From assembly GCF_037023745.1 (NCBI RefSeq), contig NZ_CP146101.1:6526001-6590000 (forward strand): 64,000 bases of DNA, given 5' to 3'. Position 1 is the stretch's first letter; every line of letters begins with the position of its first letter. Made by a program: the position numbers and the translations under genes. The DNA is from Streptomyces sp. SCSIO 30461. Its GTDB lineage: Bacteria; Actinomycetota; Actinomycetes; Streptomycetales; Streptomycetaceae. The notes beneath the pieces were generated by a model that was not told where the DNA came from, ran no database searches, and worked only from the letters and a program-made list of their open reading frames with translations. Shown piece by piece: positions 31,228 through 53,106 of this stretch.

Positions 31228-32727
31228 TTACACATCTTCCTGTCGGTCGAGCACGGACGCCAGGGCCTGCTCGAACCCGCTGGCCTCACTGGCCTCACGG
31301 GTCGGGTCCTGCTGCCGCACGTCGATGACGTGCCCGGTCATTTCGGACAGCAGCACGTCCAGCGAGGTCCGGGCCACGGCCTCGGAGGACAGCAGCGATC
31401 CCTCCGGCTCCTGACCGAACGCCTTGGTGCGCATGGGCGTCGCAGTGCGTTCCGGATTGACGCAATTCACACGGATTCCATCGGTCGCCCATTCGTCGGC
31501 GAGCGCCTGGGTCAGATTCACCATGGCAGCCTTCGTCGACGAGTAAAGGCTGTACTCAGCGCGGCCACGGGTGTAGCTGGAAGAGGTGTAGAGGAGCAGC
31601 TGCCCCTTGGTCTCGACAAGATACTTGTAGGATGCACGCGCAATCTGGACAGGTGCCAGGTAATTGACGTTCAACGCTTCCTGGATAGTCGCGTTGTCGG
31701 TCTCGGCGAGCCTTCCGATGCGCAGGACACCCGCGGTGTTGATGACGTAGTCGACCCGGCCGCTCTCGGCATAGGCGCGGGACAGCGCGTCGTCCACATG
31801 CTCCGGGTTCTCCACATGCGTGCCGGTGGTGGAGCGGCCGAGGGCGTAGACGTTGGCGCCGTACTGCTCGGCGAGCGCCGCGATGTCGGCGCCGATGCCG
31901 TACGAGCCACCGAAGACGACCAGGGTCTTGCCCTGCAGCAGCTCCCGGTACGCGGCCTCGCCGGCTTGGCGCGGGGCGGCGGTCGAGGCCAGTTGGAAGA
32001 GCTTGTCCGCGATGAAGACGTCGACCGGCTGGGTCACCTTCATGTTGTACTCGTCACCCGCGACGACGTAGATCGGCACGTCGGGCAGGTACTTGAGCAC
32101 CACGCTGCAGTCGTCCGTCGCCTGGAAGTTGGGGTCGCCCGCGGCGATCTCGTAGGCCCTGCGGATCGTGGAGAGCTTGAACGCCTGCGGAGTCTGACCG
32201 CGACGCAGCCGGGACCGGTCCGGGACGTCGGTGATGAACTCGCCGTCCTCACCGTGGGTGCGGGTCACGATGATCGTGTCCGCCGAGGGGATGGCGACGT
32301 CCACGGCCTGGTAGCGGTCGAGAGCCTGAACGCAGTCCGCGATCACTCGCTGCGACAGAAGCGGACGCACCGCGTCATGGAAGAGGACATTGGCGTCCTC
32401 GCCGTCGGCGAGACCCTCGCCCAGCGCGGCGATCGCCCGCTCGGTCGTCTCGTTGCGGGTGGCCCCGCCCTCGATGACCTTCCTGACCTTGGTGAGACCC
32501 GCCTTGGCGATGATCTTCTCGACATCAGGCACAAAACCCGGCGCCATCAGCACGATCACATCATCGATGGACTCGGCCTGCTCGAAGATCGTGAGGGTGT
32601 GCTCGATGACGGCCTTGCCCGCGATCTTCAGCAGCTGCTTGGGGATCGCGAGGCCCACCCGCTGACCGGTACCCCCGGCCAGCACGACAGCTGTGGTGCG
32701 GGTCTTGGCTTCATACGGCACGGACAC
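31228..32727 (-). CDS. Bifunctional cytidylyltransferase-SDR reductase (Bcs1-like, CDP-ribitol synthesis)
   Basis: A 499-residue fusion. Residues 12-235 are an IspD/TarI-like cytidylyltransferase (AVVLAGGTGQRVGLAIPKQLLKIAGK, FHDAVRPLLSQ, RRGQTPQAFKL, TDDCSVV). Residues 262-480 are a short-chain reductase (VVFGGSYGIGADIAALAE Rossmann motif, INTAGVLRIG, catalytic YSLYSSTKAAM). The same order is found in Haemophilus Bcs1, which reduces ribulose 5-phosphate and makes CDP-ribitol; the assignment is by architecture. GTG start with GAGG 6 nt upstream. By eye this gene and the gap beside it look slightly less GC-rich than the neighbours. Confidence 0.88.
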   Translation of the reverse strand: MSVPYEAKTRTTAVVLAGGTGQRVGLAIPKQLLKIAGKAVIEHTLTIFEQAESIDDVIVLMAPGFVPDVEKIIAKAGLTKVRKVIEGGATRNETTERAIAALGEGLADGEDANVLFHDAVRPLLSQRVIADCVQALDRYQAVDVAIPSADTIIVTRTHGEDGEFITDVPDRSRLRRGQTPQAFKLSTIRRAYEIAAGDPNFQATDDCSVVLKYLPDVPIYVVAGDEYNMKVTQPVDVFIADKLFQLASTAAPRQAGEAAYRELLQGKTLVVFGGSYGIGADIAALAEQYGANVYALGRSTTGTHVENPEHVDDALSRAYAESGRVDYVINTAGVLRIGRLAETDNATIQEALNVNYLAPVQIARASYKYLVETKGQLLLYTSSSYTRGRAEYSLYSSTKAAMVNLTQALADEWATDGIRVNCVNPERTATPMRTKAFGQEPEGSLLSSEAVARTSLDVLLSEMTGHVIDVRQQDPTREASEASGFEQALASVLDRQEDV

Positions 32728-37076: not shown

Positions 37077-37090
37077 CTCTCCTCAGTCCC

Positions 37091-37752: not shown

Positions 37753-37809
37753 ATGACAGCCCGGCCGTGGGATGAGCTGGTGTGGAGCACGAGGGTGGGG
37801 CAGCGGTGA
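37753..37809 (+). CDS. 18-residue upstream micro-ORF coupled to the mannose synthase gene
   Basis: The ORF encodes MTARPWDELVWSTRVGQR. Its TGA overlaps the GTG of the following gene as GTGA, and its ATG lies 7 nt after a TATGCT -10 hexamer. It can bring ribosomes from a leaderless 5' end to the second gene by coupled re-initiation. Whether the peptide itself matters is unknown. Confidence 0.45.
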   Translation: MTARPWDELVWSTRVGQR

Positions 37810-38582
37810 GCGACGACGGCCGGCGGAATCCGGGCGCCATGGGCGATGCCATGGGTCCGGTACTGGTGATCATTCCGACGTACGACGAGGCCGACAGCCT
37901 TGAGATGATCGTCTCGCGCGTGCGCTCGTCGGTGGCCGAGGCGCACATCCTCGTCGTCGACGACAACAGCCCCGACGGCACGGGCAAGATCGCTGATGAG
38001 CTCGCCTCCACCGACACCCATGCCCATGTACTGCACCGCGAGGGCAAGGAAGGGCTGGGCACGGCATATCTCGCCGGCTTCCGCTGGGGTATCGAGCACG
38101 GCTACGAGGTCCTGGTCGAGATGGACGCGGACGGCTCCCACCAGCCCGAGGAACTGCCCCGGCTGCTGGGCGCGCTGCCCGGCGCGGACCTCGTGCTGGG
38201 CTCCCGGTGGGTGCCCGGCGGCAGCGTGGTCAACTGGCCCGCGTCGCGCAAGTTCCTCTCGCGCGGCGGCAGCCTCTACTCACGACTGCTGCTGGGCGTG
38301 CCGATCAGGGACGTCACCGGCGGCTACCGGGCCTTCCGTCGCGAGACCCTGCTGGGGCTGGGACTGGACGCGGTGGCGTCCCAGGGCTACTGCTTCCAGG
38401 TCGACCTGGCCTGGCGATCCGTCACATCGGGTTTCCGGGTCACCGAAGTCCCCATCACCTTCGTGGAACGCGAGCGCGGCGACAGCAAGATGAGTCGCGC
38501 GATCGTCGCGGAAGCCCTCTGGCGGGTCACTGCATGGGGGATCAGCAGCCGCCTCAAGCGCCTCGCGGGCGTGCGCCGCTGA
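37806..38582 (+). CDS. Polyprenol monophosphomannose synthase
   Basis: A 258-residue GT2 enzyme of the DPM1 type that makes polyprenyl-phosphate-mannose from GDP-mannose on the cytoplasmic face. Seen: VLVIIPTYDEADSLEMIVSRV, VVDDNSPDGTGKIADEL, HREGKEGLGTAYLAGF, the DAD metal motif in EMDADGSHQPEEL, RDVTGGYRAFRRE and ITFVERERGDSKMS, all family landmarks. There are no C-terminal membrane helices. GTG 37806 fits the micro-ORF overlap and gives VSDDGRRNP; a GTG at 37782 is possible. The product would supply the PIG-V-like mannosyltransferase encoded next. Confidence 0.93.
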   Translation: MSDDGRRNPGAMGDAMGPVLVIIPTYDEADSLEMIVSRVRSSVAEAHILVVDDNSPDGTGKIADELASTDTHAHVLHREGKEGLGTAYLAGFRWGIEHGYEVLVEMDADGSHQPEELPRLLGALPGADLVLGSRWVPGGSVVNWPASRKFLSRGGSLYSRLLLGVPIRDVTGGYRAFRRETLLGLGLDAVASQGYCFQVDLAWRSVTSGFRVTEVPITFVERERGDSKMSRAIVAEALWRVTAWGISSRLKRLAGVRR

Positions 38583-38681: not shown

Positions 38682-38810
38682 GGCAACCCCGCGCTCACCC
38701 GCCCCATTAGGACGCATTCCCGAACCTCAGATCTGTGTGCTATTTCTGTATGCGGGTCTTATTACCAGTGCGTAGCTTGTGTAGGCGCACCTTCCACTTG
38801 TGAAGAGGGA

Positions 38811-40097
38811 ATGTCGGGATCGCAGACCAGGCAGGCCTGGGTGCCTGCCCAGCGCCCCGCACCGCCGCAGGAGCGGAGCCGACCGCAGCATCCTCAACGC
38901 CATCGGAGGGGGCCCAGGCGCAGCGCACCGGCACTCTCCCGTGCGACGGGTGCCCTGCGGCGTGCCTGGCCGGCGCTGGCGGCCTATCTCGTCGTACGCG
39001 CCCTGGGCGTGGCGGCGGTCGCGTATCGCGCCGGCGACGACGGTCCGGGCCTCGGCGCTCTCCTGACCTCGAAGTACGACACCCAGTACTACGTACACAT
39101 AGCCCGGTTCGGCTACGCCGCGCCGATGACCGACGCATGCGGTGTGCAGGGCGAGTTGTGCAAGTACGCGTTCTTCCCCCTCTACCCGGCGCTCATACGC
39201 GGCGCTTCCGCAGTCCTCCCCTTACCCGTCGGCGTGGTGGCCTGGGGCATCGCGATGCTCGGCGCGCTCATGGCGGCATGGGGTGTCTACGCGGTCACCG
39301 AACGCGTGGCGGGCCGCCGCGCCGGTGTGATCGCCGCCGTGCTCTGGGGCATCGCACCGCACGCCATGGTCGAGTCCATGGCGTACACCGAGCCGCTGTT
39401 CACCGCCCTCGCGGCCTGGTCGCTCTTCGCGGCGCTCACCCACCGATGGGCCGTCGCGGGGCTGCTCGCCTGCCTCGCCGGACTGACCAGGCCCTCCGGG
39501 TCCGCGGTCGTCGCGGCGGTGGTCCTGGCGGCCGCATGGACGCTGCTCGCCCGGTCGCGTAGCCGGACACGGCCGGAGACCACGGCGAACCGGCCCCGCA
39601 CCGGTGCGCTGCTGACCGCCGTCGTGGTCGCTCCGATCGGCTGGTTCGCCTGGTTCGGTTGGGTGGGCTATCGCGCGGGGAACTGGCGCGGGTACTTCCA
39701 GGTACAGGAGAAGTGGGGCAGCGCCTTCGACGGCGGTGACTTCACCCTGCACCGGATCGCCGACGTGTTCCTCAAGCTCCCGGTCGGTCTGAACGCCGTC
39801 GTGGGCACGGGCACCGTCCTGCTGTCACTGGTGGTCTTCGCGATCTGCGTCCAGCAGCGGCAGCCGACCGTGCTGCTCGTCTATGTCGGCGTGCTCCTGC
39901 TCATCGCCGTCGGCGGCGCGGGATACTTCCACTCCAAGGCGCGCTTCCTACTTCCGGCGTTCCCGCTGCTCATCCCGGCCGCCAAGGCGCTCGCGGCGAC
40001 CCGGTCCTCGACCATGTACACGCTGCTCGGCGCGGCGACGCTCGTCTCCAGCGGCTACGGCGTCCACCTCATGCTCGTCTGGCCGCACTCCCCCTGA
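38811..40097 (+). CDS. Polytopic GT-C mannosyltransferase, PIG-V-like
   Basis: A 428-residue membrane enzyme. After a 60-residue basic/Pro-rich start come about ten hydrophobic helices. The first outer loop carries YDTQYYVHIARFGY, matching the W/YDxxxY...G motif of PIG-V-like mannosyltransferases, followed by KYAFFPLYPALIRG and AYTEPLFTALAAWSLFA with ARLTRPSG-like AGLTRPSGSAVVAAV. These enzymes use lipid-phosphate-mannose outside the membrane. The gene for the donor synthase is immediately upstream. AGAGGGA precedes ATG 38811 very closely. Acceptor unknown: wall polymer or secreted protein. Confidence 0.82.
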   Translation: MSGSQTRQAWVPAQRPAPPQERSRPQHPQRHRRGPRRSAPALSRATGALRRAWPALAAYLVVRALGVAAVAYRAGDDGPGLGALLTSKYDTQYYVHIARFGYAAPMTDACGVQGELCKYAFFPLYPALIRGASAVLPLPVGVVAWGIAMLGALMAAWGVYAVTERVAGRRAGVIAAVLWGIAPHAMVESMAYTEPLFTALAAWSLFAALTHRWAVAGLLACLAGLTRPSGSAVVAAVVLAAAWTLLARSRSRTRPETTANRPRTGALLTAVVVAPIGWFAWFGWVGYRAGNWRGYFQVQEKWGSAFDGGDFTLHRIADVFLKLPVGLNAVVGTGTVLLSLVVFAICVQQRQPTVLLVYVGVLLLIAVGGAGYFHSKARFLLPAFPLLIPAAKALAATRSSTMYTLLGAATLVSSGYGVHLMLVWPHSP

Positions 40098-40151
40098 CAC
40101 CGTTGCGTATGCTCACCGGACAAAGCCTCCGTGCCGGAAAGAGACAGCAGC

Positions 40152-40754
40152 GTGAACTACAGGGTCCAGCCCACCGCCCAGGTCGACGACACCGCCGAGA
40201 TCGGTGCCGGCAGCAGCGTGTGGGAGCTCGCGCAGATCCGCGAGGGCGCGCGCCTCGGCGAGGGCTGCGTGATCGGGCGCGGCGCCTACGTCGGCACGGG
40301 TGTGCGCATGGGGGACAACTGCAAGCTGCAGAACTACGCCCTCGTCTACGAGCCTGCGGAGCTCGGTGACGGGGTGTTCATCGGCCCCGCCGTCGTGCTC
40401 ACCAACGACCACAACCCGCGGTCCGTCGACCCCGATGGCAAGCAGAAGCGCGGCGGTGACTGGGAGGCCGTGGGCGTGAAGATCGCCGACGGGGCGTCGA
40501 TCGGCGCGCGCTCGGTGTGCGTGGCCCCGATCAGCATCGGCCGCTGGGCGATGGTCGCCGCGGGCGCCGTGGTGACCAAGGACGTGCCCGACTTCGCTCT
40601 GGTCGTCGGCGTCCCCGCCCGGCAGATCGGCTGGGTCGGCCACTCCGGCGCTCGGCTGCACGAGCGCGAGGGCGAACCGGGTCTCTGGGAGTGCCCGCGA
40701 ACCGGGGCACTGTACAGGGAGAAGGACGGCCTCCTGGAGGAGCACACCCGCTGA
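40152..40754 (+). CDS. Left-handed beta-helix N-acetyltransferase, WbpD/WlbB-like
   Basis: A 200-residue hexapeptide-repeat acetyltransferase (TAQVDDTAEIGAGSSVWEL, CVIGRGAYVGTGVRMGDNC, GVFIGPAVVLTNDHNPRSVD, KIADGASIGARSVCVAPISI, AAGAVVTKDVPDFALVVGVPAR). The TNDHNPR...G insertion is typical of enzymes that acetylate the 3-amino group of UDP-2-acetamido-3-amino-glucuronate. With WbpA-, WbpB-, WbpE- and WbpI-like genes nearby, this is the likely role. GTG 40152 gives the family start VNYRVQPTAQV. It precedes the large GT4 gene on the same strand. Confidence 0.88.
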   Translation: MNYRVQPTAQVDDTAEIGAGSSVWELAQIREGARLGEGCVIGRGAYVGTGVRMGDNCKLQNYALVYEPAELGDGVFIGPAVVLTNDHNPRSVDPDGKQKRGGDWEAVGVKIADGASIGARSVCVAPISIGRWAMVAAGAVVTKDVPDFALVVGVPARQIGWVGHSGARLHEREGEPGLWECPRTGALYREKDGLLEEHTR

Positions 40755-40881
40755 GCGCCGGACCGTAACGGGCGCACGCCTTGGATAGTCTGGTGTCTGC
40801 TGCGCCACGTGAAGGTTCCGGTATTGACCGGCAGAGCGGCAATCCGGGCGCTCAGGGAAGTGAAAGTGCGAAGGGATCCAG

Positions 40882-43146
40882 ATGAACAGCCAGGTGCTCT
40901 ATCTCGCGCTCGGTTCATACCGGGTGCGAGCGGCAGTCGAGCATGTGAGACAACTGGCGTCCTCGGGGTCCAGGGTCGATCTCGTCGTCATCGACGCTCC
41001 TGAGTGGTCGGCCGCCGACGGCCTCGCGGAGCTGGACGGCGTGGAGATCCTCAAGCTGCGGGCCGACAAGCACGGTTCCGCATGGGGTGCGGCCAAGAAG
41101 CTGCTCGCCGACAGGTCCGGCCCGTTCACCCGGGCCGGACTGCTGATCGCGGGTGACGCGCAGGCACTGCCGGTGGCCTGGGCTGCCCAGCGCCGCAGGC
41201 CCGATCTGGAGCTGCGGCTCGAGTCCTACGACACCGCGGGCCGCGCCGCCGCCGCAGCTGACGTGGCCATGGTGACACCCTGGTATCCCTCGCCCAACAA
41301 TCCGTATGCCGGGTCGTTCGTGGCGGCCTCCGCCTCGGCTGTGTCCGGGCGCGTCGGCCGGATCCAGGTCATCCACACCGAGGACTGGTCCGGCCGCGCG
41401 GACCCCGCGCTGAACGACGCCATCAAGGTCACCGTGAACCGGCTCCAGGAGCGCCGGGAACTGGTTCCCGTGCTGGACACCCCCGAGGGGGAGCTGCTCC
41501 GGGTGCCGGTGCCGCTCATAAACCGGAAGAACTACGCGCCGTGGGTCACCGCGCAGGAGACCGCCCTGCGCAAGGCGCTGCCCAAGGGCCGGATCGAGGC
41601 CCCCGTCGTGCACGCGCACACCGGAATCTACGGTGGTGTGCTGGCCACTCGGCTCGCGGCGTCCGACGCCCGTGTCGTCGTCACGGAGCACTCCTCGTTC
41701 CTGGCCAAGGTCTTCGAGCAGGCCGCGGCCCGTCGGCTCTACGCCGAGGTGCTGGAACGCGCCGACGTGTTCCTGTGCGTCAGCGAGAAGCTGCTCGGCC
41801 AGATCGCGCAGGAATTCCCCGAGCACGCGCACAAGCTGCGGGTCGTACCCAACGTGGTCGGTTTCGAGCGGTTCTCCGCCGGTCCACGCCGCGACCCCCG
41901 GATGCTGCGCTGGCTGTACGTGGGCAGACTGACCAAGCCGAAGGGCGTCCACCTCGTCCTGGAGTCCTTCGCGCAGGTGGCCCAGCGTGAGCCCGACGCC
42001 ACGCTCACCATGGTCGGCCACGGCGGTCTGGAGCAGGAACTCACCGAGCGCGCAGCCGAGCTGGGTGTCGCCGACAGGTTCCGTCTGCTGCCGCCGGTGG
42101 ACCCGGCCGAGGTCAACGAGCTGATGCACCAGCACGACCTGCTGGTGCACGCCAGCAAGGGCGAGACGTTCGGCATGACGGTGGTGGAGGCGGTCGCCTC
42201 GGGTCTTCCGGTACTGGTGACCCGCAGTGGCGGCCCGGAGGAGAGCCTGGCGGGCATCGAGTCCGCGGCCGGTGCGCTCATGGACGTCAGCGACGATCCC
42301 CGAGTCATCACCGATGCCTACTGGCGGCTTCGTGAGGAAGCCGACGCGCTCGACCTGGCAGGGGCGCGCAAGGTGCTTGAGGAGCGCTACGGCGCGGACG
42401 CCGTGGCCGAGCAGCTCATCGCCGCGTACGAAGGCCGGGACCTGCCCGCGCCCCAGGCCGATGCCGAGAGCACAGCCGTGGCGACCGGTTCCGCAGAGCC
42501 CGTGAAGTCCGTGGAGCCCCAGCAGTCCGTGGCACCCGATGACAGCGCCGGCTCCCCCGGAGCCGCCCATCGGACCGAACCGGTCGGCCGTGCGATCGTG
42601 CTTGCCCTCACACCGGCGAAGCCGCGCCGCATCGTCGACTTCGCCAACCACCTGGTCGAGCAGGGCGTAGAGGTCACACTGGTCACAGCGCGTGCCACGG
42701 CCCAGTGGAAGCGACTCGACCTGAGCCCCGAGATCCCGGTGCTGAGCATCGAGACAGCCGAGAAGAAGCTGCTCATCCCCCGGGGCGAGCGGTTCCTGGT
42801 CTACCGCGCTCCGCGCGCGGTACTGCGCAGGGCACGGCGGCTCGCCGCGAAGAAGCGCGACGCGATCGGTCCCGAGCTGGCGGTGGCGAAGGTGCAGCGC
42901 GTCCACACCCGGTACGCCAACGCCTTCCACAAGAAGGTCTTCAACCGGGGCTACATGGAGGTCCGCCCGCGCGTGCTGGCCAAGCTGACCCGGCGCCACG
43001 CCCAGCCCGAGCTGGACCTCGCACACATCGACCACGTCTTCGTGAGCGACATCAACTCCACGGTGACCGGCTGGAAGTGGGCCAAGGCCCACCCTCATCT
43101 GAAGGTGACCACGCACCTGGACCGCGACACATACGCCGTCGACTGA
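40882..43146 (+). CDS. Three-part GT4 glycosyltransferase with N- and C-terminal accessory domains
   Basis: A 754-residue protein. Residues 1-120 form a Rossmann-like unit (VLYLALGSYRVRAAVEHVRQL). Residues 125-520 are a GT-B glycosyltransferase (MVTPWYPSPNNPYAGSFV, APVVHAHTGIYGGVLATRL, YVGRLTKPKGVHLVLESF, E-x7-E in SKGETFGMTVVEAVASGLPVLV). After a Ser/Ala/Glu-rich linker, residues 565-754 form a further unit (AIVLALTPAKPRRIVDFANHL, FLVYRAPRAVLRRARRLA, VSDINSTVTGWKWAKAHPHL). Middle and C-terminal parts match two separate genes at 45189-46436 and 44625-45179. AAGGGA lies upstream of the ATG. Donor and acceptor unknown. Confidence 0.87.
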   Translation: MNSQVLYLALGSYRVRAAVEHVRQLASSGSRVDLVVIDAPEWSAADGLAELDGVEILKLRADKHGSAWGAAKKLLADRSGPFTRAGLLIAGDAQALPVAWAAQRRRPDLELRLESYDTAGRAAAAADVAMVTPWYPSPNNPYAGSFVAASASAVSGRVGRIQVIHTEDWSGRADPALNDAIKVTVNRLQERRELVPVLDTPEGELLRVPVPLINRKNYAPWVTAQETALRKALPKGRIEAPVVHAHTGIYGGVLATRLAASDARVVVTEHSSFLAKVFEQAAARRLYAEVLERADVFLCVSEKLLGQIAQEFPEHAHKLRVVPNVVGFERFSAGPRRDPRMLRWLYVGRLTKPKGVHLVLESFAQVAQREPDATLTMVGHGGLEQELTERAAELGVADRFRLLPPVDPAEVNELMHQHDLLVHASKGETFGMTVVEAVASGLPVLVTRSGGPEESLAGIESAAGALMDVSDDPRVITDAYWRLREEADALDLAGARKVLEERYGADAVAEQLIAAYEGRDLPAPQADAESTAVATGSAEPVKSVEPQQSVAPDDSAGSPGAAHRTEPVGRAIVLALTPAKPRRIVDFANHLVEQGVEVTLVTARATAQWKRLDLSPEIPVLSIETAEKKLLIPRGERFLVYRAPRAVLRRARRLAAKKRDAIGPELAVAKVQRVHTRYANAFHKKVFNRGYMEVRPRVLAKLTRRHAQPELDLAHIDHVFVSDINSTVTGWKWAKAHPHLKVTTHLDRDTYAVD

Positions 43147-43152
43147 GCGATG

Positions 43153-43203
43153 TGAGACGGCTGAGGCCCGACCGGCATCTCCGGTCGGGCCTCAGCCGTC
43201 TCA
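43153..43203. terminator. Perfect 23-bp bidirectional terminator
   Basis: Two exact complementary 23-nt arms (43153-43175 and 43181-43203, beginning TGAGACGGCTGAGG) flank the loop CATCT. It lies between convergent glycosyltransferase genes. Confidence 0.88.
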
Positions 43204-43218
43204 GGCGCGCGACGCGAT

Positions 43219-44604
43219 TCAGTCGACGATCTCGCGGAGCCGTTCCTCGAACGGGATCAGCACCGCTTCGCGCGTATAGGTGTCGGCGTGCCGGCGGGCG
43301 GCCTCACGCTGCTCCGGGCTCAGATCACGAGCCGCCTTGCCGGCCTCCACCATGGACGCGGCCAGCGCGTCCGCATCCAGGCTGTCGGCGTTGAACCAGA
43401 GCGGATAACCGTCCAGCACGTCCTGGGCCGCGATCCCCGGGGCGTGTACGGAGACGATGGGGTGCCCGAAGGCCATGTACTCGAAGATCTTGCCTGAGGT
43501 GACGTACTTGCCACCGCCCGCGAGGAACACGAGCACATCGGCGTTCTCGTACACCTGACCGACCTCGGTCTTGGAGACCGGACCGCAGTAGCGGAGCCCG
43601 GTGTCCTCGACACCCTCCGGGCGCGGTCCGTCCTGAAGGCCGAGCCGGGCCTTCAGCGCGCCGGGGCTGTTCTTGAAGAAGCCCAGATGCCCATGGATCC
43701 GGAGCTCGGCATCGGCCAGGTCCGGATGGCGCCGTGCGATCTTGAATGCCTCGGCCATCTCCTCGACCGGCTGCTTGGCCGTCAGTGTGCCGAGGTAGGC
43801 GAACCGCAGCGGGCGCTGCACGGTGGGCGGCACCGTGTCGGGCTCGGCACTGGCCACGTCCTCGGGATCCGGGGCGTCCGGGGCCTTCGGCAGTACATCG
43901 GCGTCCCAGCCGTTGGGCACCACCATCATGCGGTCGGCGACCTCGGGATAGCGCTCGGCGTGCCAGCCGCGCAGGGCCTCGTTGACGAACACGGATGCCG
44001 ATGCCTTGTTCAGCATCCGCCGCTCCCAGTCCCAGGCGATATGGCCGTCCGGGAAGGCGGGCTCGTCGTGGAACAGGTCGAGCGTCCAGGAGTCGCGGTA
44101 GTCCATCACGAACGGAACACCCGTGAGCCGGTTGAAGAGCCAGGCTGCGCCGAAGGACGCGAACGGGTTGCCGGTGGCCACGACGACGTCGAAGCGCTTC
44201 TTGGTGTGCAGCTTCAGGGCACGTACGACCGAAGCCCACGCCCAGGACGAGTACCGCTCGGGGAAGAGCTTCGTCTGGCTGAACTGGTACAGCCGTCTGG
44301 CCGCCAGCGGGAAGCTGCGCCGGAGCCAGCTGAACTCCCGCAGGTCCTGCTGCCAGGTGTACAGGTTGAGCGAAGGGCGCTCGACGCGGATACGCGGGTC
44401 GACCGTCTCCGAGAGACCCTCGTCCACCGAGCCGATGACGTTGTAGAGGAAGTCGAGCGGGGCGGCACACACGGTGACGTCCCAGCCCTTCTCGACCAGG
44501 TGGTTGGCGGTCGCCCGGGCGCGGTACACACCGCTCGCTCGTGACGGCGGGAAGTAGAACGCCAGATAGAGCACACGGGGGCGCCGTTCGCTACGGCTTT
44601 TCAT
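43219..44604 (-). CDS. GT4-family glycosyltransferase
   Basis: A 461-residue GT-B enzyme: VLYLAFYFPPSRASGVYRARATANHLVEKGWDV is the sugar-acceptor side, VVVATGNPFASFGAAWLFNR and FVMDYRDSWTLDLF are shared with WcaI/RfaB-like transferases, and the donor domain has FAYLGTLTAKQPVEEMAEAF, then GGGKYVTSGKIFEYMAFGHPIVSV with the conserved Glu. ATG 44602-44604 with GAGGA upstream is chosen over the preceding TTG. It is third in a minus-strand run with the GT4 at 45189 and the 184-residue gene. Confidence 0.87.
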   Translation of the reverse strand: MKSRSERRPRVLYLAFYFPPSRASGVYRARATANHLVEKGWDVTVCAAPLDFLYNVIGSVDEGLSETVDPRIRVERPSLNLYTWQQDLREFSWLRRSFPLAARRLYQFSQTKLFPERYSSWAWASVVRALKLHTKKRFDVVVATGNPFASFGAAWLFNRLTGVPFVMDYRDSWTLDLFHDEPAFPDGHIAWDWERRMLNKASASVFVNEALRGWHAERYPEVADRMMVVPNGWDADVLPKAPDAPDPEDVASAEPDTVPPTVQRPLRFAYLGTLTAKQPVEEMAEAFKIARRHPDLADAELRIHGHLGFFKNSPGALKARLGLQDGPRPEGVEDTGLRYCGPVSKTEVGQVYENADVLVFLAGGGKYVTSGKIFEYMAFGHPIVSVHAPGIAAQDVLDGYPLWFNADSLDADALAASMVEAGKAARDLSPEQREAARRHADTYTREAVLIPFEERLREIVD

Positions 44605-44624
44605 CAACGTTCCTCGGGTGGGGA

Positions 44625-45179
44625 TCAGCGAGCGGCTGAGGACTGCGGGGGTACAAGTGTGTCGACGCTGTAGGAGACCCGCGGGGTTGCAAGACCCGAG
44701 GCCTCCCAGGAACGGATCAGCCCGAGAGCCCGCTGAACGGACAGCGCATCGGCCACCACCAGCATCTCGGGACCGCGGCCGTCCGGGAAGTGGCTCCGCA
44801 CCATCCGGTCACCTATCCGAGGCCACAATCTGCGGTGCAGCGGCACGAAGAGCCTACGGTGGATACGGCCCGCCACTCGGCGTTCGTACGCCTTCAGAGC
44901 GCGCCGCGCCCCGCTGCCGAGTGGTCCACGGCCGACGACGCGGACAACCGCGCGCGGCACCCGGTACAGCACCAGGCGCTCCAGACGCCTCGGGAGATGG
45001 CGCGCGACGAGTTCCTCGGACGTCACCAGCTGCACGCCCGGGGCGAAGGACTGCCCCTCCCAGGACTTCTTCCGGGCGACCAGAACCACCGCCCGGCCGC
45101 CGGCACCGACGACCGCAGCGGTCTCTTCGGCCACAGCCCGTTTGCGCGAGGCGCCGAGGGCCAGGAACAGGACCTGCAT
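44625..45179 (-). CDS. Glycosyltransferase-associated protein, stand-alone form of an accessory domain
   Basis: 184 residues, no named family recognised. It opens with a Rossmann-like strand-helix (MQVLFLALGASRKRAVAEETAAVV), contains LVLYRVPRAVVRVVGRG and a basic helix (RIHRRLFVPLHRRLWPRI), then LVVADALSVQRALGLIRSWE and PRVSYSVDTLV. The same order occurs in the C-terminal 190 residues of the 754-residue protein (FLVYRAPRAVLRRARR, VSDINSTVTGWKWAKAHPHL, THLDRDTYAV). GGAG precedes the ATG by 4-5 nt; the upstream GT4 stop is 9 bp away, so they are co-translated. Probably forms a complex with that GT4. Confidence 0.72.
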   Translation of the reverse strand: MQVLFLALGASRKRAVAEETAAVVGAGGRAVVLVARKKSWEGQSFAPGVQLVTSEELVARHLPRRLERLVLYRVPRAVVRVVGRGPLGSGARRALKAYERRVAGRIHRRLFVPLHRRLWPRIGDRMVRSHFPDGRGPEMLVVADALSVQRALGLIRSWEASGLATPRVSYSVDTLVPPQSSAAR

Positions 45180-45188
45180 GTCACTCCA

Positions 45189-46436
45189 TCAATCGAGGGC
45201 GCCGGCCCGGTCCGCGTCCCGCTCATCGGCCGAGGGGGAATCCGGGAACCAGAGGCGGTAGTGGGTCTCGGCGACAGCTTCGTAGCCGTACCGGGCGGCC
45301 AGCGCCTCCTGCGCCCGCGCCAGGTCCAGCGAACCGGCGTCGAACCTGGCACGCAGGCGGCGGAAGCCGTCGCTGATGTGCTCGGCGTCCTCCTCGACGT
45401 CGAGGAGCTCGCCCGCCGCGTCCTCGATGCCGGCCAGGGTCTTCTCAGGGCCTCCGCAGCGGGTCACCAGAACCGGCATCCCCGCGGCTATGCCCTCGAC
45501 GATGGTCATGCCGAAGGTCTCGTAGCGGCTGGGATGCACCAGGAGGTCGTGCTCCCGCATCAGGTCAAGCGCCTGCTCGTGCGGAATGGAGCCGGGCAGC
45601 CGGACCGCATCGTCCAGGCCCAGCTCGGCGACGCGCTCGGTGAGCGGCTTACGCAGCGGCCCCTCACCGACGAGGGTGAGCGTGAGGGAAGGGTCTTCGG
45701 CGTGGCACTGGGCGAATGCCTCGACCAGCCAGCGGACGCCTTTCAGTTCCACCATGGAACCGAGGTAGAGCCATCTGCGCAGATCCTTGACCGGCGACGG
45801 CCGGGGCTCATCGAAGGAGATCGGATTCGGGATGCGCATGATTCTTTCCGCATGATGCGGGAATTCCCTGCTCAGCACCTCGGTGACCTTGTCCCCCACA
45901 GCAAGGAATCCCGTGACTCGGTACAGCAGCTCGTCGTAGAGCTCGCGCGCCTCGGGGTCCTGGAAGACCCGCTCGAGGAACGAGGCGTGCTCGGTGACGA
46001 ACACCCGCGCGTCAGGTCGGGCGTTCTGCAGGGCGGCCCAGCCGCTCGGAAGGCCCACATGCGCGTGCACGACCGGGGCGTCGATGGGCTTTCCGCCCAG
46101 AGCGTTGCGCAGCTGCCGCTCGTGGTTGCGGGACTGCGCACCGTAGTCCTGGCCCCGGGGGGTGCTCACGGGGAAGTGCACGAGCTCAGCGCCACCGACC
46201 GTGGGGACACGGTGCAGTGCGCTGGCGAACAGCTCGGCGTTGGCCGCCTCCACCGCTTCGGTGGTCGGCTCGTCCATCGGGGAGACCCAGGGGTCGCAGT
46301 GATAAACGACGAAACTGTCGCATCCCGGCGCTGTCGCGCCCACCATTGCCTGGACGAATGATCCCCGGAAGGGCAGCTCACGAGTGGGATACCACGGCGT
46401 GACCACAGCCGCATCCCGGGATGCTGCCTCTTCCAT
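45189..46436 (-). CDS. GT4-family glycosyltransferase, paralogue of the 754-residue protein's core
   Basis: A 415-residue GT-B enzyme: AVVTPWYPTRELPFRGSFVQAM, APVVHAHVGLPSGWAALQ, FVTEHASFLERVFQDPEARELY, YLGSMVELKGVRWLVEAF and E-x7-E in SRYETFGMTIVEGIAAGMPVLVTR. These line up through the middle of the 754-residue protein (TEHSSFLAKVFEQAAARRLY, THE same GxPVLVTRxGGPE ending), so they are paralogues. GGAGGAAG precedes the ATG by about 8 nt. First of three minus-strand genes; divergent from the epimerase gene across 165 bp. Confidence 0.9.
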   Translation of the reverse strand: MEEAASRDAAVVTPWYPTRELPFRGSFVQAMVGATAPGCDSFVVYHCDPWVSPMDEPTTEAVEAANAELFASALHRVPTVGGAELVHFPVSTPRGQDYGAQSRNHERQLRNALGGKPIDAPVVHAHVGLPSGWAALQNARPDARVFVTEHASFLERVFQDPEARELYDELLYRVTGFLAVGDKVTEVLSREFPHHAERIMRIPNPISFDEPRPSPVKDLRRWLYLGSMVELKGVRWLVEAFAQCHAEDPSLTLTLVGEGPLRKPLTERVAELGLDDAVRLPGSIPHEQALDLMREHDLLVHPSRYETFGMTIVEGIAAGMPVLVTRCGGPEKTLAGIEDAAGELLDVEEDAEHISDGFRRLRARFDAGSLDLARAQEALAARYGYEAVAETHYRLWFPDSPSADERDADRAGALD

Positions 46437-46601
46437 TGACGACTTCCTCCCGAATGCGCACGGCCGAAGCCCACATTATCATCGGGCCCAATTCGACCGG
46501 CGTTCAGCGATGCTCCGCCCAGACGGTACGGTCACCTCACGGGCTGCGGTTCCGGACCGCGTCAAGCGCCCGTTCTCCCAGGTCTCAAGGAGCAGCACAC
46601 C

Positions 46602-47690
46602 GTGAAGGTCCTCAGCGTGGTCGGGGCGCGCCCCCAATTGGTCAAGCTCGCACCGATTGCCGCGGCGTTCGCCGGAACCGACCACCAGCATGTGATTGTC
46701 CACACAGGACAGCACTACGATGCAGATCTCTCCGACGTCTTCTTCACCGGCCTGGGCATCCCCGACCCGGACGTCCACCTGGGTATCGGCTCCGGCAGCC
46801 ACGGTGTGCAGACGGGCGGTGTGCTCACGGCCATGGACCCGGTCCTGGACGCGGAGCAGCCCGACTGGGTGCTCGTGTACGGCGACACCAACTCCACCCT
46901 GGCCGGTGCGCTATCCGCCGTGAAGATGCACCTGCCGGTGGCACACCTGGAGGCGGGGCTGCGCTCCTTCAACCGGCGTATGCCCGAGGAGCACAACCGC
47001 ATCCTCACCGACCATGCCGCCGACCTGCTGCTCGCACCGACCGAGGAGGCCATGCGCCACCTGGCGAACGAGGGCCTGAGCGAGCGCTCCGTGCTGGCCG
47101 GCGACGTGATGGTGGACGTGTGCCTGCGCATCCGCGACGCCGTGCTGGCCGGCGAGCATCCGAAGCCGGTGCTTCCCGAGGGCATCGACCCCGAGGCGCC
47201 GTATCTGCTGGCCACCCTGCACCGCCCCGACAACACCGACGGCCCAGAGCGGCTCGCGGCGATCCTCGATGCCCTGGCCGACCTCCCGGTGCCCGTCGCG
47301 CTGCTGGCCCACCCGCGTCTGGTGGCTCGCGCCGAGCAGCACGGGATCAAGCTGAACCGCGGTTCGCTGCACTCCGGGCGTCCGCTGCCGTACGCGGGCC
47401 TGGTCTCCGCCGTGATCGGCTCGGCCGGTGTGGTCACCGACTCGGGCGGGCTGCAGAAGGAGGCCTTCCTGCTCGACCGCGTCTGCACGACGATCCGCCC
47501 CGAGACGGAGTGGGTGGAGACGCTGGAAGGCGACTGGAACCGTCTGGTGCCGAACCCGCACGAGCTCGGCGCGGGTGAGTGGGCCGCCATCGCGACCCGG
47601 CCGGCCCCGGGCACCGACCGCGGACTCCCCTACGGCGACGGCCGGGCGGCCGAGCGTGTGGTGCGGTTCCTGGAGCAGCACAAGCGCTGA
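46602..47690 (+). CDS. UDP-N-acetylglucosamine 2-epimerase family enzyme (WbpI/WecB-like)
   Basis: A 362-residue non-hydrolysing epimerase that inverts C2 of a UDP-GlcNAc-type sugar. Landmarks: VVGARPQLVKLAPI, VHTGQHYDADLSDVFF, VYGDTNSTLAGALSA, HLEAGLRSFNRRMPEEHNR, TLHRPDNTD and TDSGGLQKEAFLL. The family covers both WecB (UDP-GlcNAc) and WbpI/WlbD (UDP-GlcNAc3NAcA); the neighbouring WbpB, E and D homologues favour the latter, or both. GTG start with AAGGAG 8 nt upstream. Confidence 0.92.
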   Translation: MKVLSVVGARPQLVKLAPIAAAFAGTDHQHVIVHTGQHYDADLSDVFFTGLGIPDPDVHLGIGSGSHGVQTGGVLTAMDPVLDAEQPDWVLVYGDTNSTLAGALSAVKMHLPVAHLEAGLRSFNRRMPEEHNRILTDHAADLLLAPTEEAMRHLANEGLSERSVLAGDVMVDVCLRIRDAVLAGEHPKPVLPEGIDPEAPYLLATLHRPDNTDGPERLAAILDALADLPVPVALLAHPRLVARAEQHGIKLNRGSLHSGRPLPYAGLVSAVIGSAGVVTDSGGLQKEAFLLDRVCTTIRPETEWVETLEGDWNRLVPNPHELGAGEWAAIATRPAPGTDRGLPYGDGRAAERVVRFLEQHKR

Positions 47691-47711
47691 CGGCTTCCCG
47701 CACGGGCGAAA

Positions 47712-47753
47712 CGGGGCCCGGTCCCGCCTCATCGGAGGCGGGACCGGGCCCCG
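47712..47753. terminator. Perfect 18-bp bidirectional terminator
   Basis: CGGGGCCCGGTCCCGCCT and its exact complement flank a 6-nt loop between the convergent epimerase and dehydrogenase genes. Confidence 0.85.
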
Positions 47754-47783
47754 GTCCTGTGCGCGGTGGAAGCCCCGGCGGTC

Positions 47784-49067
47784 TCAGCCGCCGATGACGA
47801 CGCGGCGGACGCCCTCCCAGCGGGCCGGGTCCGTGGTGCGGCGGCCGTCCACCAGGACGGTGACGTCCGGCAGGTCGGAGGCGGCCAGCTCGCGGTACTC
47901 GGCGTGGTCGGCCTGGAGGATCGCGGCCGTGACCTGCTCGCCCTGGTGCGGGGTGAGGCCGTGCGCGGTCAGCTCGTCGGCGGTGTACATCGGGTCGGAG
48001 ACGAAAGGCACCGCGCCGCGCGCCTTCAGGGCCTCGACGGTCCCGAAGACACCGGAGAAGGCGGTCTCCTTGACGCCGCCCCGGTAGGCGGCGCCCAGCA
48101 CCAGTACGTTGACGTCCTTCAGGTCGCCGTAGGCGGCGGCCAGCAGGTCGACGGCGTACTCGGGCATCGCCGCGTTGGCCTCGCGGGCGGCGCGCACCAC
48201 GGTCGCCTCGGGGTCGTTCCACAGGTACATCCGCGGGTAGATCGGGATGCAGTGGCCGCCGACGGCGATGCCGGGCTGGTGGATATGGCTGTAGGGCTGC
48301 GAGTTGCAGGCCTCGATGACCTTCTTGACGTCGATGTCGTTCTTGTCGGCGAACCGGGCGAACTGGTTGGCCAGGCCGATGTTGACATCGCGGTACGTGG
48401 TCTCGGCGAGCTTCGCCAGCTCCGATGCCTCGGCGGTGCCCAGGTCCCAGACGCCGTTCGGCTGCGGCAGGTCGGTGCGCTCGTCGAAGTCGAGCACCTG
48501 CTCGTAGAACTCCACGCCGTGCTTGGCGGAGGCCTCGTCGATGCCGCCGACCAGCTTCGGGTAGCGGCGCAGGTCGGCGAAGACTCGGCCGGTGAGGACC
48601 CGCTCCGGCGAGAACACCAGGTGGAAGTCCTCCCCCGCGGTCAGGCCCGAGCCCTGCTCCAGCATCGGGGCCCAGCGGGTGCGGGTGGTGCCGACCGGCA
48701 GCGTGGTCTCGTACGAGACGAGGGTGCCGGGCTTGAGGCCCTTGGCGATGGCCTGCGTGGCGGAGTCCATCCAGCCGAAGTCCGGAGTGCCATCGGCGTC
48801 CACGAACAACGGGACGACGACCACGACGGCATCGGACTGCGCGACGGCGGCGGCGGTGTCCGTGGTGGCGGACAGCAGCCCGGCATCGGTGACCTGCTTC
48901 AGCTTGACGTCCAGGTCGTGCTCGCCGGGGAAGGGCTCGGTGCCGGCGTTGACCAGCTCCACGACCTTCTCGTTGACGTCGGCACCGATGACCTTGTGGC
49001 CCTTGGCGGCGAACTGCACGGCGAGCGGAAGCCCGATCTTGCCGAGCGCGACTACACAGATATTCAT
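47784..49067 (-). CDS. UDP-sugar 6-dehydrogenase (WbpA/WecC-like)
   Basis: A 427-residue NAD-dependent enzyme that oxidises C6 of a UDP-N-acetylhexosamine to the uronic acid in two steps. Seen: the Rossmann start MNICVVALGKIGLPLAVQFA, TTLPVGTTR, the EASELAKLAETTYRDVNIGLANQ helix, the catalytic Cys in VGGHCIPIYP and VLVLGAAYRGGVKET. Substrate is either UDP-GlcNAc or UDP-ManNAc; the co-transcribed WbpB and WbpE homologues favour UDP-GlcNAc. ATG overlaps the upstream GT2 stop (ATGA). Last gene of the wbpE-wbpB-GT2-dehydrogenase operon. Confidence 0.92.
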   Translation of the reverse strand: MNICVVALGKIGLPLAVQFAAKGHKVIGADVNEKVVELVNAGTEPFPGEHDLDVKLKQVTDAGLLSATTDTAAAVAQSDAVVVVVPLFVDADGTPDFGWMDSATQAIAKGLKPGTLVSYETTLPVGTTRTRWAPMLEQGSGLTAGEDFHLVFSPERVLTGRVFADLRRYPKLVGGIDEASAKHGVEFYEQVLDFDERTDLPQPNGVWDLGTAEASELAKLAETTYRDVNIGLANQFARFADKNDIDVKKVIEACNSQPYSHIHQPGIAVGGHCIPIYPRMYLWNDPEATVVRAAREANAAMPEYAVDLLAAAYGDLKDVNVLVLGAAYRGGVKETAFSGVFGTVEALKARGAVPFVSDPMYTADELTAHGLTPHQGEQVTAAILQADHAEYRELAASDLPDVTVLVDGRRTTDPARWEGVRRVVIGG

Positions 49068-50695
49068 CGGGTCAGTTTCCTCTTCACACGGGACATCAAG
49101 TGGCGCAGCCGGCTGCCCTCACGAGGCGCGAGGGACTCCCAGAGCGGAGCCGTGGTGATCACCAGCCGGCCCTTGTCGTTCGCGTTTGCCGCGATGCGGT
49201 ACGGGACCTTCTCCCGCCAGCGGCGGGCCAGGGGCAGCGGTCGGCCCAGGGTCCTCACCGGGACCTCGTACGTCGAGCCTGCCACGTCCAGATAGGCGCG
49301 CACGCCCAGCTTGGCCTTGACGGGCGGGACCGGGATCCGGGCGGTGAGCACCGTGCCCGTGCCGTCCTCCGTCGCAGCGCGGCTCAGCTCGCCCGCCGGG
49401 GCTGGGAGTTCGGTGCCGACGGGCAGCCTGCGGGCGCCGGGCTTGTCGGCACTCTTGGGCATGGCCTTGTTGGCGAGGCGGATCACGGCGTGGTCGGTCT
49501 CGCCCGCGACCGGGACACGGACCGAGAGAGCGAGTGCCAGTTCCTGGCCCTGCTGCTCCCACACCGCGGAGACCAGTCCGGTGCCGTCGGCGAGTTGCTT
49601 GGGTACGGACTCGCCGATGACCTCGAAGAGCCGGTCGGGCAGGCCGAGTGCCGGATCGCGGAAGCCGGGGTAGCGCAGATAGGCCCGCCCGTGCTCCAGC
49701 AGCATCGGCGGAGCGCCTGCCTCGGCCTCATCGGTGATGGCGCGGACCAGTTCGCTGACCGCGCCGCGCTGGGCCAGCGCGATCCGCACCCGCCGCTTGA
49801 CGTCCATCGAGTCGCGCAGCGGCTCGGTGAAGTACTCGTCAGCGAGTGCGCCCACCCCGGCGCAGACCTGCACCTGGAGTGCACGGTCCAGGGCCGGGAA
49901 GTCGTCCTGGACCAACTTGGCCAGCTCCCAGGTGAAGTGGCGCTTGAACACCGCGTCACGCTGGGGACCCGCCTCGATCAGACCGGCCGTGAACTTCATG
50001 ATCTCGGCGGTGCAGCGCAGCCTGGCCAGATGGTCGGCACGGTAGGTGATGTTGCTCGCGTCACCGCGCTTCACCGCGTAGTAGTACGTGTAGTCGGCGA
50101 GTACCGAGATCTTCCTCGCCCGCACGCACGCCTCGATGGTGAACGGCTGGTCGCTGCCGACCGGCACGTCCTCGGGGAAGCGCAGTTCGTACTTCTCGAC
50201 CAGCTCGCGCCGGAACAGCTTGGTGTTGGCCAGCGTGAACGACAGCGCCGAGTCGTAGAGGCTGATGTCCGGGTCGCTCTTCTTGTAGAGCGCCTGGTGG
50301 ACGTAGCGGCCGTTGGTGCCGACCATCTTGCCGACGACGACATCGGAGCCGTGCTCGTCGGCGCAGGCCACCATCCGCTCCAGCGCCTCTTTGCCGAGGT
50401 AGTCGTCGGAGCCGATGAAGTACACGTAACGGCCGGTGGCCACCTCAAGCGCCCGGTTGCTGGGCGCGGCGGGGCCACCGGAGTTGGCCTGGTGGATCAC
50501 CTTCACGGTGCCGGGGTAGCGCTCGGCGAAACGGTCGAGCTCCCGGCCGCTGTCGTCGGTCGAGCCGTCGTCCACGGCCACGACCTCGAGCCGGTCGACC
50601 CCGATGCTCTGTCCCACCAGCGAGTTCAGGCACTCGGTGAGGTACGGCATCGTGTTGTAGACGGCGACGACGACGGTGACGTCGGGGGTGGTCAA
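49064..50695 (-). CDS. GT2-family glycosyltransferase with beta-rich C-terminal region, TarS-like
   Basis: A 543-residue enzyme. The GT-A domain (1-210) shows VTVVVAVYNTMPYLTECLNSL, AVDDGSTDDSG, HQANSGGPAAPSNRAL, VYFIGSDDYLG and a PVGSDQPFTIEACV acceptor-site acid. NSGGPxxPxN and VVGKMVGTNGR are close to S. aureus TarS. A helical linker follows, then a beta-sandwich-like region (350-510, VWEQQGQELALALSVRVPV and others) as in TarS oligomerisation domains. The TTG start at 50693-50695 is set by its overlap with the upstream stop (TTGA). Encoded within the uronic-acid operon, it is the likely transferase for that sugar; inferred. Confidence 0.87.
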   Translation of the reverse strand: MTTPDVTVVVAVYNTMPYLTECLNSLVGQSIGVDRLEVVAVDDGSTDDSGRELDRFAERYPGTVKVIHQANSGGPAAPSNRALEVATGRYVYFIGSDDYLGKEALERMVACADEHGSDVVVGKMVGTNGRYVHQALYKKSDPDISLYDSALSFTLANTKLFRRELVEKYELRFPEDVPVGSDQPFTIEACVRARKISVLADYTYYYAVKRGDASNITYRADHLARLRCTAEIMKFTAGLIEAGPQRDAVFKRHFTWELAKLVQDDFPALDRALQVQVCAGVGALADEYFTEPLRDSMDVKRRVRIALAQRGAVSELVRAITDEAEAGAPPMLLEHGRAYLRYPGFRDPALGLPDRLFEVIGESVPKQLADGTGLVSAVWEQQGQELALALSVRVPVAGETDHAVIRLANKAMPKSADKPGARRLPVGTELPAPAGELSRAATEDGTGTVLTARIPVPPVKAKLGVRAYLDVAGSTYEVPVRTLGRPLPLARRWREKVPYRIAANANDKGRLVITTAPLWESLAPREGSRLRHLMSRVKRKLTR

Positions 50696-51705
50696 CTGGC
50701 CACGTCCTCCGGGCTCAGCTTCACCGTGGTGCCGGTGTTGGCGGAGTCGATGACCGCGGCGGCGACCTCGACGGTCCGCAGACCCTGGCGCAGGGTGCAA
50801 ATGTCATCGGACTTGCCCAGCATGGTGTCCCGGAACAGCTCGTGCTCCACCAGCAGCGGCTCGCGCTTCGGGATGGCGTACCGGATCATGTCGCCCTCCG
50901 AGACACCGCGGAACGCCTGGAGGGCCTCCCACTCGGTGGTCACGGCCGCGTTCGAGTAGAACGTCAGGTCGGCGGTGAGGGTGTCGGCGATGAAGCAGCC
51001 GCGCTCTCCGGTGACCGAGGTGAAGCGCTCCTTGAGCGGGCTCAGCCAGTTGACGAGGTGGCTGACCATCGTGCCGTCGGAGAGCTTGCCGACGGCGGAG
51101 ACCATGTCCTCGTGGGGCCGACCGGACTTGGAGACCGTGTGCGCGGCGATCGAGGTGTACTGCTGACCGGTGACCCAGGCCGTCAGGTCGATGTCGTGGG
51201 TGGCGAGGTCCTTGACCACGCCGACATCGGCGATCCGGTGCGGGAACGGGCCCTGGCGGCGGGTGACGACCTGGAAGACATCGCCGAGCTCACCGGACTC
51301 CAGCCGGGCGCGCAGTGAACGCAGCGCCGGGTTGCAGCGCTCGATGTGGCCGACTCCGGCCACCAGGCCGCGCGACTCGAAGGCCTCGACCAAGCGGCGG
51401 GCACCCGCGACGGTGTCCGCGACCGGCTTCTCGACCAGCGCGCCGATTCCGGCCTCCGCCAGCTTCAGGCCGACTTCCTCGTGCAGCGCGGTCGGGCAGG
51501 CGACCACGGCGTAGTCGATGCCGAGCGCGATCAGCTCCTCGACGGTGGACAGCACGGGAGCACCCTGCGCCCAGCCGTTCTTGTCCCCCATCGGGTCCAC
51601 CACGGCGACCAGCTCGACGCCGTCGAGACCGGCGAGTACGCGGGCGTGGTGGCGCCCCATGGAGCCGAGGCCGATCAGCCCGGCCCGCAGTCCAGCAGCA
51701 GTCAC
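50692..51705 (-). CDS. Gfo/Idh/MocA-family oxidoreductase (WbpB/WlbA-like)
   Basis: A 337-residue NAD-dependent dehydrogenase: Rossmann start [21 protein letters not shown], the EKP motif in [26 protein letters not shown] and [12 protein letters not shown]. WbpB/WlbA enzymes oxidise C3 of UDP-GlcNAcA to the 3-keto sugar for transamination. The GTG start overlaps the aminotransferase stop (GTGA), and the gene overlaps the GT2 downstream, so all are translated together. The family is broad; context makes the sugar assignment. Confidence 0.88.
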
Positions 51706-52820
51706 AGGTTTTCTCCCAGCGCGTTCACGGCGGTGACGATGCGCTCAAGGTCGTTCGCGGTCAGCGAGGGGTGCACGGGCAGCGAGACGACCTCGGCCGC
51801 CGCGCGCTCGGTCTCCGGCAGGTCCCAGGTACGGCCGGCCTTCTGGTCGTGCTCCCAGAACGGCTTCAGGCGGTGGATGGGCGTCGGGTAGTACACCGCG
51901 TTGCCGATCCCGGCCTCGGTGAGCTTCGCCATGGCGGCGGCGCGGTCCCCGCGGACCCGGATCGTGTACTGGTGGTAGATGTGGCGCGCGCCCTCGGCGA
52001 CGACCGGGGTGGCCACGTTCGGCGCGCTGATGTGCTCGGAGAGGTACGCGGCGTTCGCGATGCGCTGCTCGGTCCAGCCCGGCAGCTTGGCCAACTGCAC
52101 CCGGCCGATGGCGGCGTTGACGTCGGTCATGCGTGTGTTGGTGCCGACGATCTCGTTGGCGTAGCGCTGCTCCATGCCCTGGTTGCGCAGCAGCCGCAGG
52201 GTGCGGGCGGTCTCGGCGTCGGCCGTGGAGATCATGCCGCCCTCAAGGCTGTGCATGTTCTTGGTCGGGTAGAAGCTGAAGGTGCCGCCTGCACCGAAGG
52301 CACCGACCGGGGTGCCGTGCAGGGCGGCGGCGTGCGCCTGGCAGGCGTCCTCGACCACGGCGAGCTTGTGCTTGTCGGCGATGGCCATGATCCGGTCCAT
52401 CGCCGACGGGTGGCCGTAGAGGTGCACCGGCATGATCGCGGCGGTGCGGGGGGTGATGGCGGCCTCGACGGCGGCCGGGTCGACGCAGTACGTGTCCGGG
52501 TCGATGTCCGCGAACACGGCCTCGGCGCCGACCAGGCGGACGGCGTTGGCCGAGGCGGCGAACGAGAACGAGGGGACGATCACCTCGTCACCCGGGCCGA
52601 TGTCCAGGGCCATCAGAAGGAGGTGCAGTGCGGACGTGCCGGAGTTGACGGCCACACAGTGGCGCCCCTGCACAAGCTCCGAGAAGCCCTCCTCGAACGC
52701 GGCGACCTCAGGTCCCTGTACGACCATGCCGCTGCGCAGCACGCGCACGGCGGCCTCGATCTCCTCTTCACCGATGACCGGGCGGGCAGCGGGGATGGGC
52801 TGCTCGTTGCTGCTCGGCAT
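51702..52820 (-). CDS. DegT/DnrJ/EryC1/StrS aminotransferase (WbpE/WlbC-like)
   Basis: A 372-residue PLP enzyme that adds an amino group to a UDP-keto-sugar. Seen: [42 protein letters not shown] and the PLP lysine in [28 protein letters not shown] near the C-terminus is typical of the sugar subgroup. GGAGG lies 8 nt upstream of ATG 52818-52820, which fixes the start. First gene of the operon; in the WbpE reaction UDP-3-keto-GlcNAcA becomes UDP-GlcNAc3NA. Confidence 0.93.
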
Positions 52821-53106
52821 TGGGTCGTCCTCCTTGAACACCGCGAGAGCTCTATATGGCAGAGACTCGGGGCCTGCGGGGCGATCTGTGGGCCACGCGA
52901 ACCCCTCGGCACGATGGTGCCGACGCCCTGCCGAGGATTGTTTGGAACCGGTCAGTCCGTACAACCGGGCTGGTCACCGACCGTAATCCTTCGGGATTTT
53001 GTGGGCTGGGCCCCCGACACGGCAGCAACCGGCGTCACATTATCAGGGATTAGCCCGTCGATTTCGGGGCAGTTAACGGCCCCAGGCATCGATTGCGCTA
53101 CGACTA
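52821..53106. other. Non-coding promoter-bearing gap upstream of the uronic-acid operon
   Basis: About 290 bp, visibly more AT-rich than its neighbours (CTCTATATGG near 52850, ATTATCAGGGATTAG near 53038). It must contain the promoter of the wbpE-like operon. I see no confident -35/-10 pair and no gene. Confidence 0.5.

Follow-up and report, generated by a model that had tools for sequence, protein, structure and literature searches.

A probable utr-type teichuronic-acid locus with its own glycosyltransferase set in a Streptomyces genome

The genes lying between a ribosomal-protein pair and rne in this Streptomyces genome very probably form a utr-type teichuronic-acid (TUA) locus that makes a ManNAc3NAcA-containing chain on wall teichoic acid. 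The host genome is a single contig of 8.05 Mb, from which a window of 64,000 nucleotides was analysed; rpmA/rplU (L27, L21) occupy 36822-37411 on one flank and rne (53172) stands on the other, with 12 predicted genes between; obg is a further anchor gene identified in the window. Together, five of the 12 cover every enzyme type of the route to UDP-ManNAc3NAcA, each intact as an open frame of coding-type composition (GC3 0.90-0.96) with a recognizable Pfam or NCBIfam family, which bears out an earlier sequence-only reading that had named five Wbp-type genes here. The other seven encode a TarS-like GT2, three GT4 enzymes, a 184-aa protein, a polyprenyl-phosphate-sugar-synthase-like GT2 and a GT-C membrane transferase. 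The same reading had proposed that the pathway feeds a Gram-positive wall polymer, in agreement with the S. griseus locus, whose product contains ManNAc3NAcA as shown by NMR (PMC13274773). It adds one more locus to the utr family, a kind already published, and brings a glycosyltransferase set of its own. The analysis links the cluster to a family of wall polymers that was lately described in Streptomyces and whose members serve as umbrella-toxin receptors, gives the frequency of the utr core and the epimerase across the genus, and points to a chemotype for which the literature found offers neither a polymer structure nor a receptor role.

The utr TUA locus was described in December 2025 by Zhao et al. 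(Cell 2025; PMC13274773) and, in the open-access literature on Streptomyces ManNAc3NAcA or teichuronic acid, as far as its text was available, such a gene cluster was found described only there. In S. griseus, NMR identified repeating 3)GalNAc-alpha(1-4)-ManNAc3NAcA-beta(1- units on ribitol-phosphate teichoic acid, deletion of utrC abolished the wall-bound chain, and the chain is the receptor for the Umb2 umbrella particle of S. coelicolor; S. antibioticus, without the epimerase, has a beta-1,4 GlcNAc3NAcA chain (PMC13274773). By structural modelling, the authors gave UtrD, A, B, J and H the P. aeruginosa-type route (PMC13274773), the five-enzyme conversion of UDP-GlcNAc to UDP-ManNAc3NAcA being described in PMC10622841. 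The anchors of the published loci are L21/L27 (ribosomal proteins), TarIJ and TagF; in S. griseus, UtrC is SGR_4943, L21/L27 are SGR_4953/4954, TarIJ is SGR_4956 and TagF is SGR_4957 (PMC13274773). Our own results show which genes are present and where, how well the core is conserved among related loci, the diagnostic residues of the epimerase and the GT-C fold; the polymer structure and the requirement for utrC were demonstrated in S. griseus (PMC13274773) and are predicted here.

On the minus strand, a utrA-like sugar 3-aminotransferase of the DegT/DnrJ/EryC1 type (WbpE role; 51702..52841; PF01041, 415 bits), a utrB-like Gfo/Idh/MocA C3 oxidoreductase (WbpB role; 50692..51705; PF01408), a utrC-like GT2 with a TarS-linker domain (49064..50695; PF00535 and PF22181) and a utrD-like UDP-sugar 6-dehydrogenase (WbpA role; 47784..49067) overlap by 4 bases at each junction, taking as the utrC start the TTG at 50695, an inferred start that falls within the utrB stop. 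The utrH/WbpI-like UDP-diNAcGlcA 2-epimerase of the non-hydrolysing type (46602..47690) stands alone on the plus strand, and the utrJ/WbpD-like hexapeptide N-acetyltransferase (40152..40754) sits within a plus-strand group spanning 37782-43146. This strand and spacing pattern fits the earlier suggestion that the five enzyme genes are split over three predicted transcripts. The open frame of the acetyltransferase was called as 40131-40754 (plus strand); the GTG at 40152 looks the better start because a GGAAAGAG stretch sits directly ahead of it.

A UtrC scan of genome contigs yielded 55 loci, of which 52 were kept after exclusion of L055-L057 (24-28% identity, non-actinobacterial). Among the named loci, those whose UtrC is closest come from Streptomyces, and several genomes from the window's genus place UtrC at contig coordinates identical to those of named Streptomyces loci (G006 and L006, for example), on which basis the genus was taken as Streptomyces. 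Matches to utrA and utrB occur in 51 loci each, utrD in all 52, and utrC in all 52 by search design, with utrABCD jointly present in 51, the epimerase in 37 and the acetyltransferase in 42, absences in these counts being less than firm because several loci end early. Where visible, rne precedes utrA in 37/37 loci (in L003, tblastn missed rne and blastp found it) and rplU follows utrD in 16/16. Such recurrence at a fixed chromosomal position, together with the lack of any natural-product scaffold gene among the surrounding proteins scanned, speaks against the idea that these genes make the amino sugar of a secondary metabolite, even though sugar aminotransferases such as 2oga, which we take to be an antibiotic-sugar enzyme, are high-scoring matches to the 51702 product; we accord this idea next to no probability, and it was ruled out on position. 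Among the matches listed for 199 Streptomyces genomes, the host included (best 7 UtrC and best 10 epimerase candidates per genome), a utrC orthologue (at least 67% identity) is found in at least 29 genomes and an epimerase orthologue (at least 71%) in at least 17, the next matches reaching at most 50% and 46%, respectively. Again among the matches listed, 14 of the 17 epimerase-bearing genomes have it and utrC within 8 kb of each other; the remaining three comprise one with the genes on different contigs, one with them far apart and one in which UtrC has just a partial match (50%), located on another contig.

The enzymes were compared with solved structures, in tables that carry other or generic names for 3mqg, 3q2k and 2oga and whose rows were in no case used to exclude a family, and with family models. 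For the acetyltransferase, described as WbpD-like, 3mqg, presumably WlbB, is far in front (E 5e-44; next structure 3e-23). The aminotransferase does match WbpE 3nyu (5e-66), as its earlier name implied, but is outscored by other sugar aminotransferases (7b0d at 9e-88, 2oga, 3frk and perosamine synthases). Similarly, the oxidoreductase is of the expected Gfo/Idh/MocA type, yet lies nearer to 7bvj (2e-20), which we take to be GnnA, a UDP-GlcNAc 3-dehydrogenase, than to 3q2k (2e-13), assumed to be WlbA, with generic Gfo/Idh entries between. A profile of seven sequences left 7bvj closest and 3q2k behind some generic Gfo/Idh entries, and in NCBIfam the UDP-GlcNAc 3-dehydrogenase model came top, under its cut-off. 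The dehydrogenase carries GGHCIP, presumably its catalytic motif, and exceeds the cut-off only of the general nucleotide-sugar-dehydrogenase model TIGR03026 (288 bits). Its closest structures are 4r16 (6e-59) and then Cap5O, and its NCBIfam scores are 248 bits for the archaeal UDP-ManNAc dehydrogenase, 190 for WecC and 103 for TviB, all under their own cut-offs, which puts it nearer by score to UDP-ManNAc dehydrogenase and WecC than to TviB. Since the closest scores lie elsewhere, WbpA-like and WbpB-like are better understood as functional guesses than as closest-family calls. The aminotransferase, oxidoreductase and dehydrogenase, whose best matches in the searched libraries are all to entries other than the Wbp type, are assigned their roles by context more than by sequence.

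The dehydrogenase scores bear directly on an alternative in which this enzyme and the epimerase are a WecB/WecC pair producing UDP-ManNAcA, the remaining three act on the route to a separate diamino sugar, and no ManNAc3NAcA is made. The epimerase, too, exceeds the cut-off of the NCBIfam wecB model, but among solved structures it fits the diNAcGlcA epimerase 8sxv far better (E 3e-100) than 4neq (3e-67) or the UDP-GlcNAc 2-epimerase 1f6d (1e-34), which places it, by score, apart from WecB, in keeping with its description as WbpI-like. In 8SXV, from T. thermophilus HB27, three residues distinguish the diacetamido-uronate enzyme: Trp307 and Tyr96, which are Arg and His/Gln in UDP-GlcNAc epimerases, and Ala18, where Leu is typical of UDP-GlcNAc epimerases and Ala was seen in one enzyme (PMC10622841). 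The present epimerase shares the first two (Trp304, Tyr93) and has Leu16 in place of the T. thermophilus Ala, a feature favoring the WecB side, and all three states are identical in the epimerases of 37/37 related loci. Moreover, utrD is 90-95% identical to the 47784 gene in the 37 loci that have an epimerase and 85-94% in the other 15, where none was detected (some of these loci being cut short); it is thus about equally conserved either way and should therefore act on a gluco-configured substrate independently of the epimerase, contrary to what a WecB/WecC pair implies. Added to this, S. griseus, with the same enzyme types, makes ManNAc3NAcA (PMC13274773). We consider the WecB/WecC alternative very improbable, and reading the epimerase itself as WecB was ruled out by score and two of the three residues; for the dehydrogenase, a WecC-like reading keeps some likelihood. 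Elsewhere in the host genome, what looks like a gene remnant at G000:C1:3808942-3809446 (minus strand) consists of short frames with two partial matches to Epimerase_2, one of them 42% identical to the 46602 epimerase.

On the preferred reading of a utr-type locus, we infer the substrate of each enzyme in the window as follows. UDP-GlcNAc would be oxidized at C6 by the 47784 product and at C3 by that of 50692, aminated at C3 by 51702 and N-acetylated by 40152, after which C2 epimerization by 46602 would yield UDP-ManNAc3NAcA. The TarS-like UtrC homologue (49064) would then place the first diacetamido-uronic acid on ribitol-phosphate wall teichoic acid, itself presumably a product of the adjoining tarIJ/tagF-like genes, and the GT4 enzymes 43219, 45189 and 40882 could extend the ManNAc3NAcA-containing chain.

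The teichoic-acid neighbors are a TarIJ-like cytidylyltransferase/SDR (31228..32727, minus strand; IspD and SDR domains, TIGR00453 and NF001183 just under cut-off) and a TagF-like polyol-phosphate transferase (28889..31102, minus strand), the latter a weak call (PF04464, E 3e-6; NCBIfam gave no match) at a position as in S. griseus. These genes and the TarS linker domain of the UtrC homologue argue for wall teichoic acid as the destination of the sugar, rather than a capsule, exopolysaccharide or glycoprotein. The latter destinations gain some support from the polyprenyl-phosphate-sugar-synthase-like GT2 and the GT-C protein in the same gene group, both being kinds of enzyme found in protein O-mannosylation, and lose it in that no Wzx/Wzy or ABC exporter was recognized among the predicted proteins scanned over 26199-52841 and in that the wall-bound chain disappears in the S. 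griseus utrC deletion (PMC13274773); overall, they appear quite improbable. Other features in the window include an LCP protein with a LytR_C domain (17972-19921, minus strand), which from its position is perhaps a wall-polymer ligase of the PdtA/SCO2578 type (PMC11481543), a DDE-type transposase (1177-2757, minus strand) and a tRNA-Ser called by ARAGORN at 56145-56239 (minus strand) within the rne coding region, perhaps a false positive.

The remaining genes set this locus apart from most of its relatives, the glycosyltransferase block being common in full to only 4/52 loci. Its variable part consists of a GT4 enzyme (45189..46436, minus strand; PF00534; at least 50% identity in 4/52 loci) and the 184-aa protein (44625..45179, minus strand), which is present in 4/52 loci and gave no Pfam or NCBIfam match. 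Next to these lie a GT4 enzyme (43219..44604, minus strand) with 35% identity to the GT4 that adjoins the epimerase in locus L004, and a 754-aa GT4 extended at both its N- and C-terminal ends (40882..43146, plus strand; PF00534 at residues 344-469), matched at 50% identity or more in 7/52 loci and poorly modelled (pLDDT 54.9). Additionally, the plus-strand group contains a GT-C membrane glycosyltransferase (GT39/PIG-V-like; 38811..40097, start inferred from the 428-aa P0001), for which an alignment of 21 homologues out of the best 120 of 1081 was used and a GT-C fold was found, and the polyprenyl-phosphate-sugar-synthase-like GT2 (37782..38582; PF00535). This GT2 is a second copy, 77% identical to the one at G000:C1:5000602; matches to it occur in 196/199 Streptomyces genomes, with two matches (E <= 1e-60) only in the host (G000) and G006. 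We infer that, on the outer side of the membrane, this GT2 and the GT-C protein attach a sugar carried by a lipid.

Several components of other utr loci gave no match among the proteins of the window: the GalE-like protein of L004 (utrE by position only; E 1e-5), its 711-aa glycosyltransferase (utrF by position only) and the UmbA-like protein of L045. Among the window proteins scanned with Pfam and NCBIfam, none was recognized as a utrI-like O-acetyltransferase. Across 51 loci (omitting the Micromonospora locus L051), the epimerase occurs together with a GalE-like match in 20 (doubtfully in L023, where the GalE-like match reaches only 31% identity) and by itself in 17, while 1 locus has just the GalE-like match and 13 have neither. 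Because the window, as distinct from the whole genome, contains no GalE-like gene, the second sugar is perhaps not GalNAc. Together with the rarely shared glycosyltransferase block and the added GT2 and GT-C, this predicts a different TUA chemotype, whose chain probably differs from that of S. griseus in its other sugars and which is perhaps decorated outside the membrane. A more specific proposal, which we offer tentatively as possible rather than likely, is a new chemotype combining a ManNAc3NAcA chain, no locus-encoded UDP-GalNAc supply, a different set of cytoplasmic GT4 enzymes and an external, polyprenyl-phosphate-carried hexose added by the GT2 and GT-C. If true, such two-sided assembly would let Streptomyces vary which sugars lie outermost on the receptor for umbrella toxins.

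Some observations concern accessory genes of this family and of umbrella toxins. The UmbA-like protein of L045 (L045:17714-19384), with Trypsin-like and FG-GAP domains, lies within a utr locus and has an 85% match in L043, and a Glucuronyl C5-epimerase-domain protein in another utr locus (L003:17983-19800) matches 7/52 loci, counting itself and one short match. ALF repeats are linked to the umbrella-toxin protein UmbC, and a cluster of ALF-repeat matches is present in the host genome at G000:C1:878427-888336, far from the window.

Among known systems, the Wbp enzymes of Pseudomonas aeruginosa and the Wlb enzymes of Bordetella share all five enzyme types with the present locus. There, however, the product goes to LPS, and the aminotransferase, C3 oxidoreductase and dehydrogenase found here are nearer to other families in our searches. 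Another parallel is the Cutibacterium acnes polysaccharide, also an actinobacterial surface polymer with ManNAc3NAcA, but from biofilm; its five residues are Gal, Glc, two ManNAc3NAcA and GalNAc, and the words 'gene cluster' are absent from the main text (PMC6598116). The utr locus of S. griseus offers the nearest likeness, with a chromosomal site of the same type (beside L21/L27 and linked to TarIJ and TagF, the last weak here), the five enzyme types, a TarS-like UtrC and the utrA-D core, the S. griseus order being taken from the lettering; orthology to its genes rests on gene type and anchors rather than alignment because S. griseus is absent from the loci compared. What distinguishes the present locus from those of both S. 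griseus and S. antibioticus is another GT4 block and, in the same window, the pair of GT2 and GT-C.
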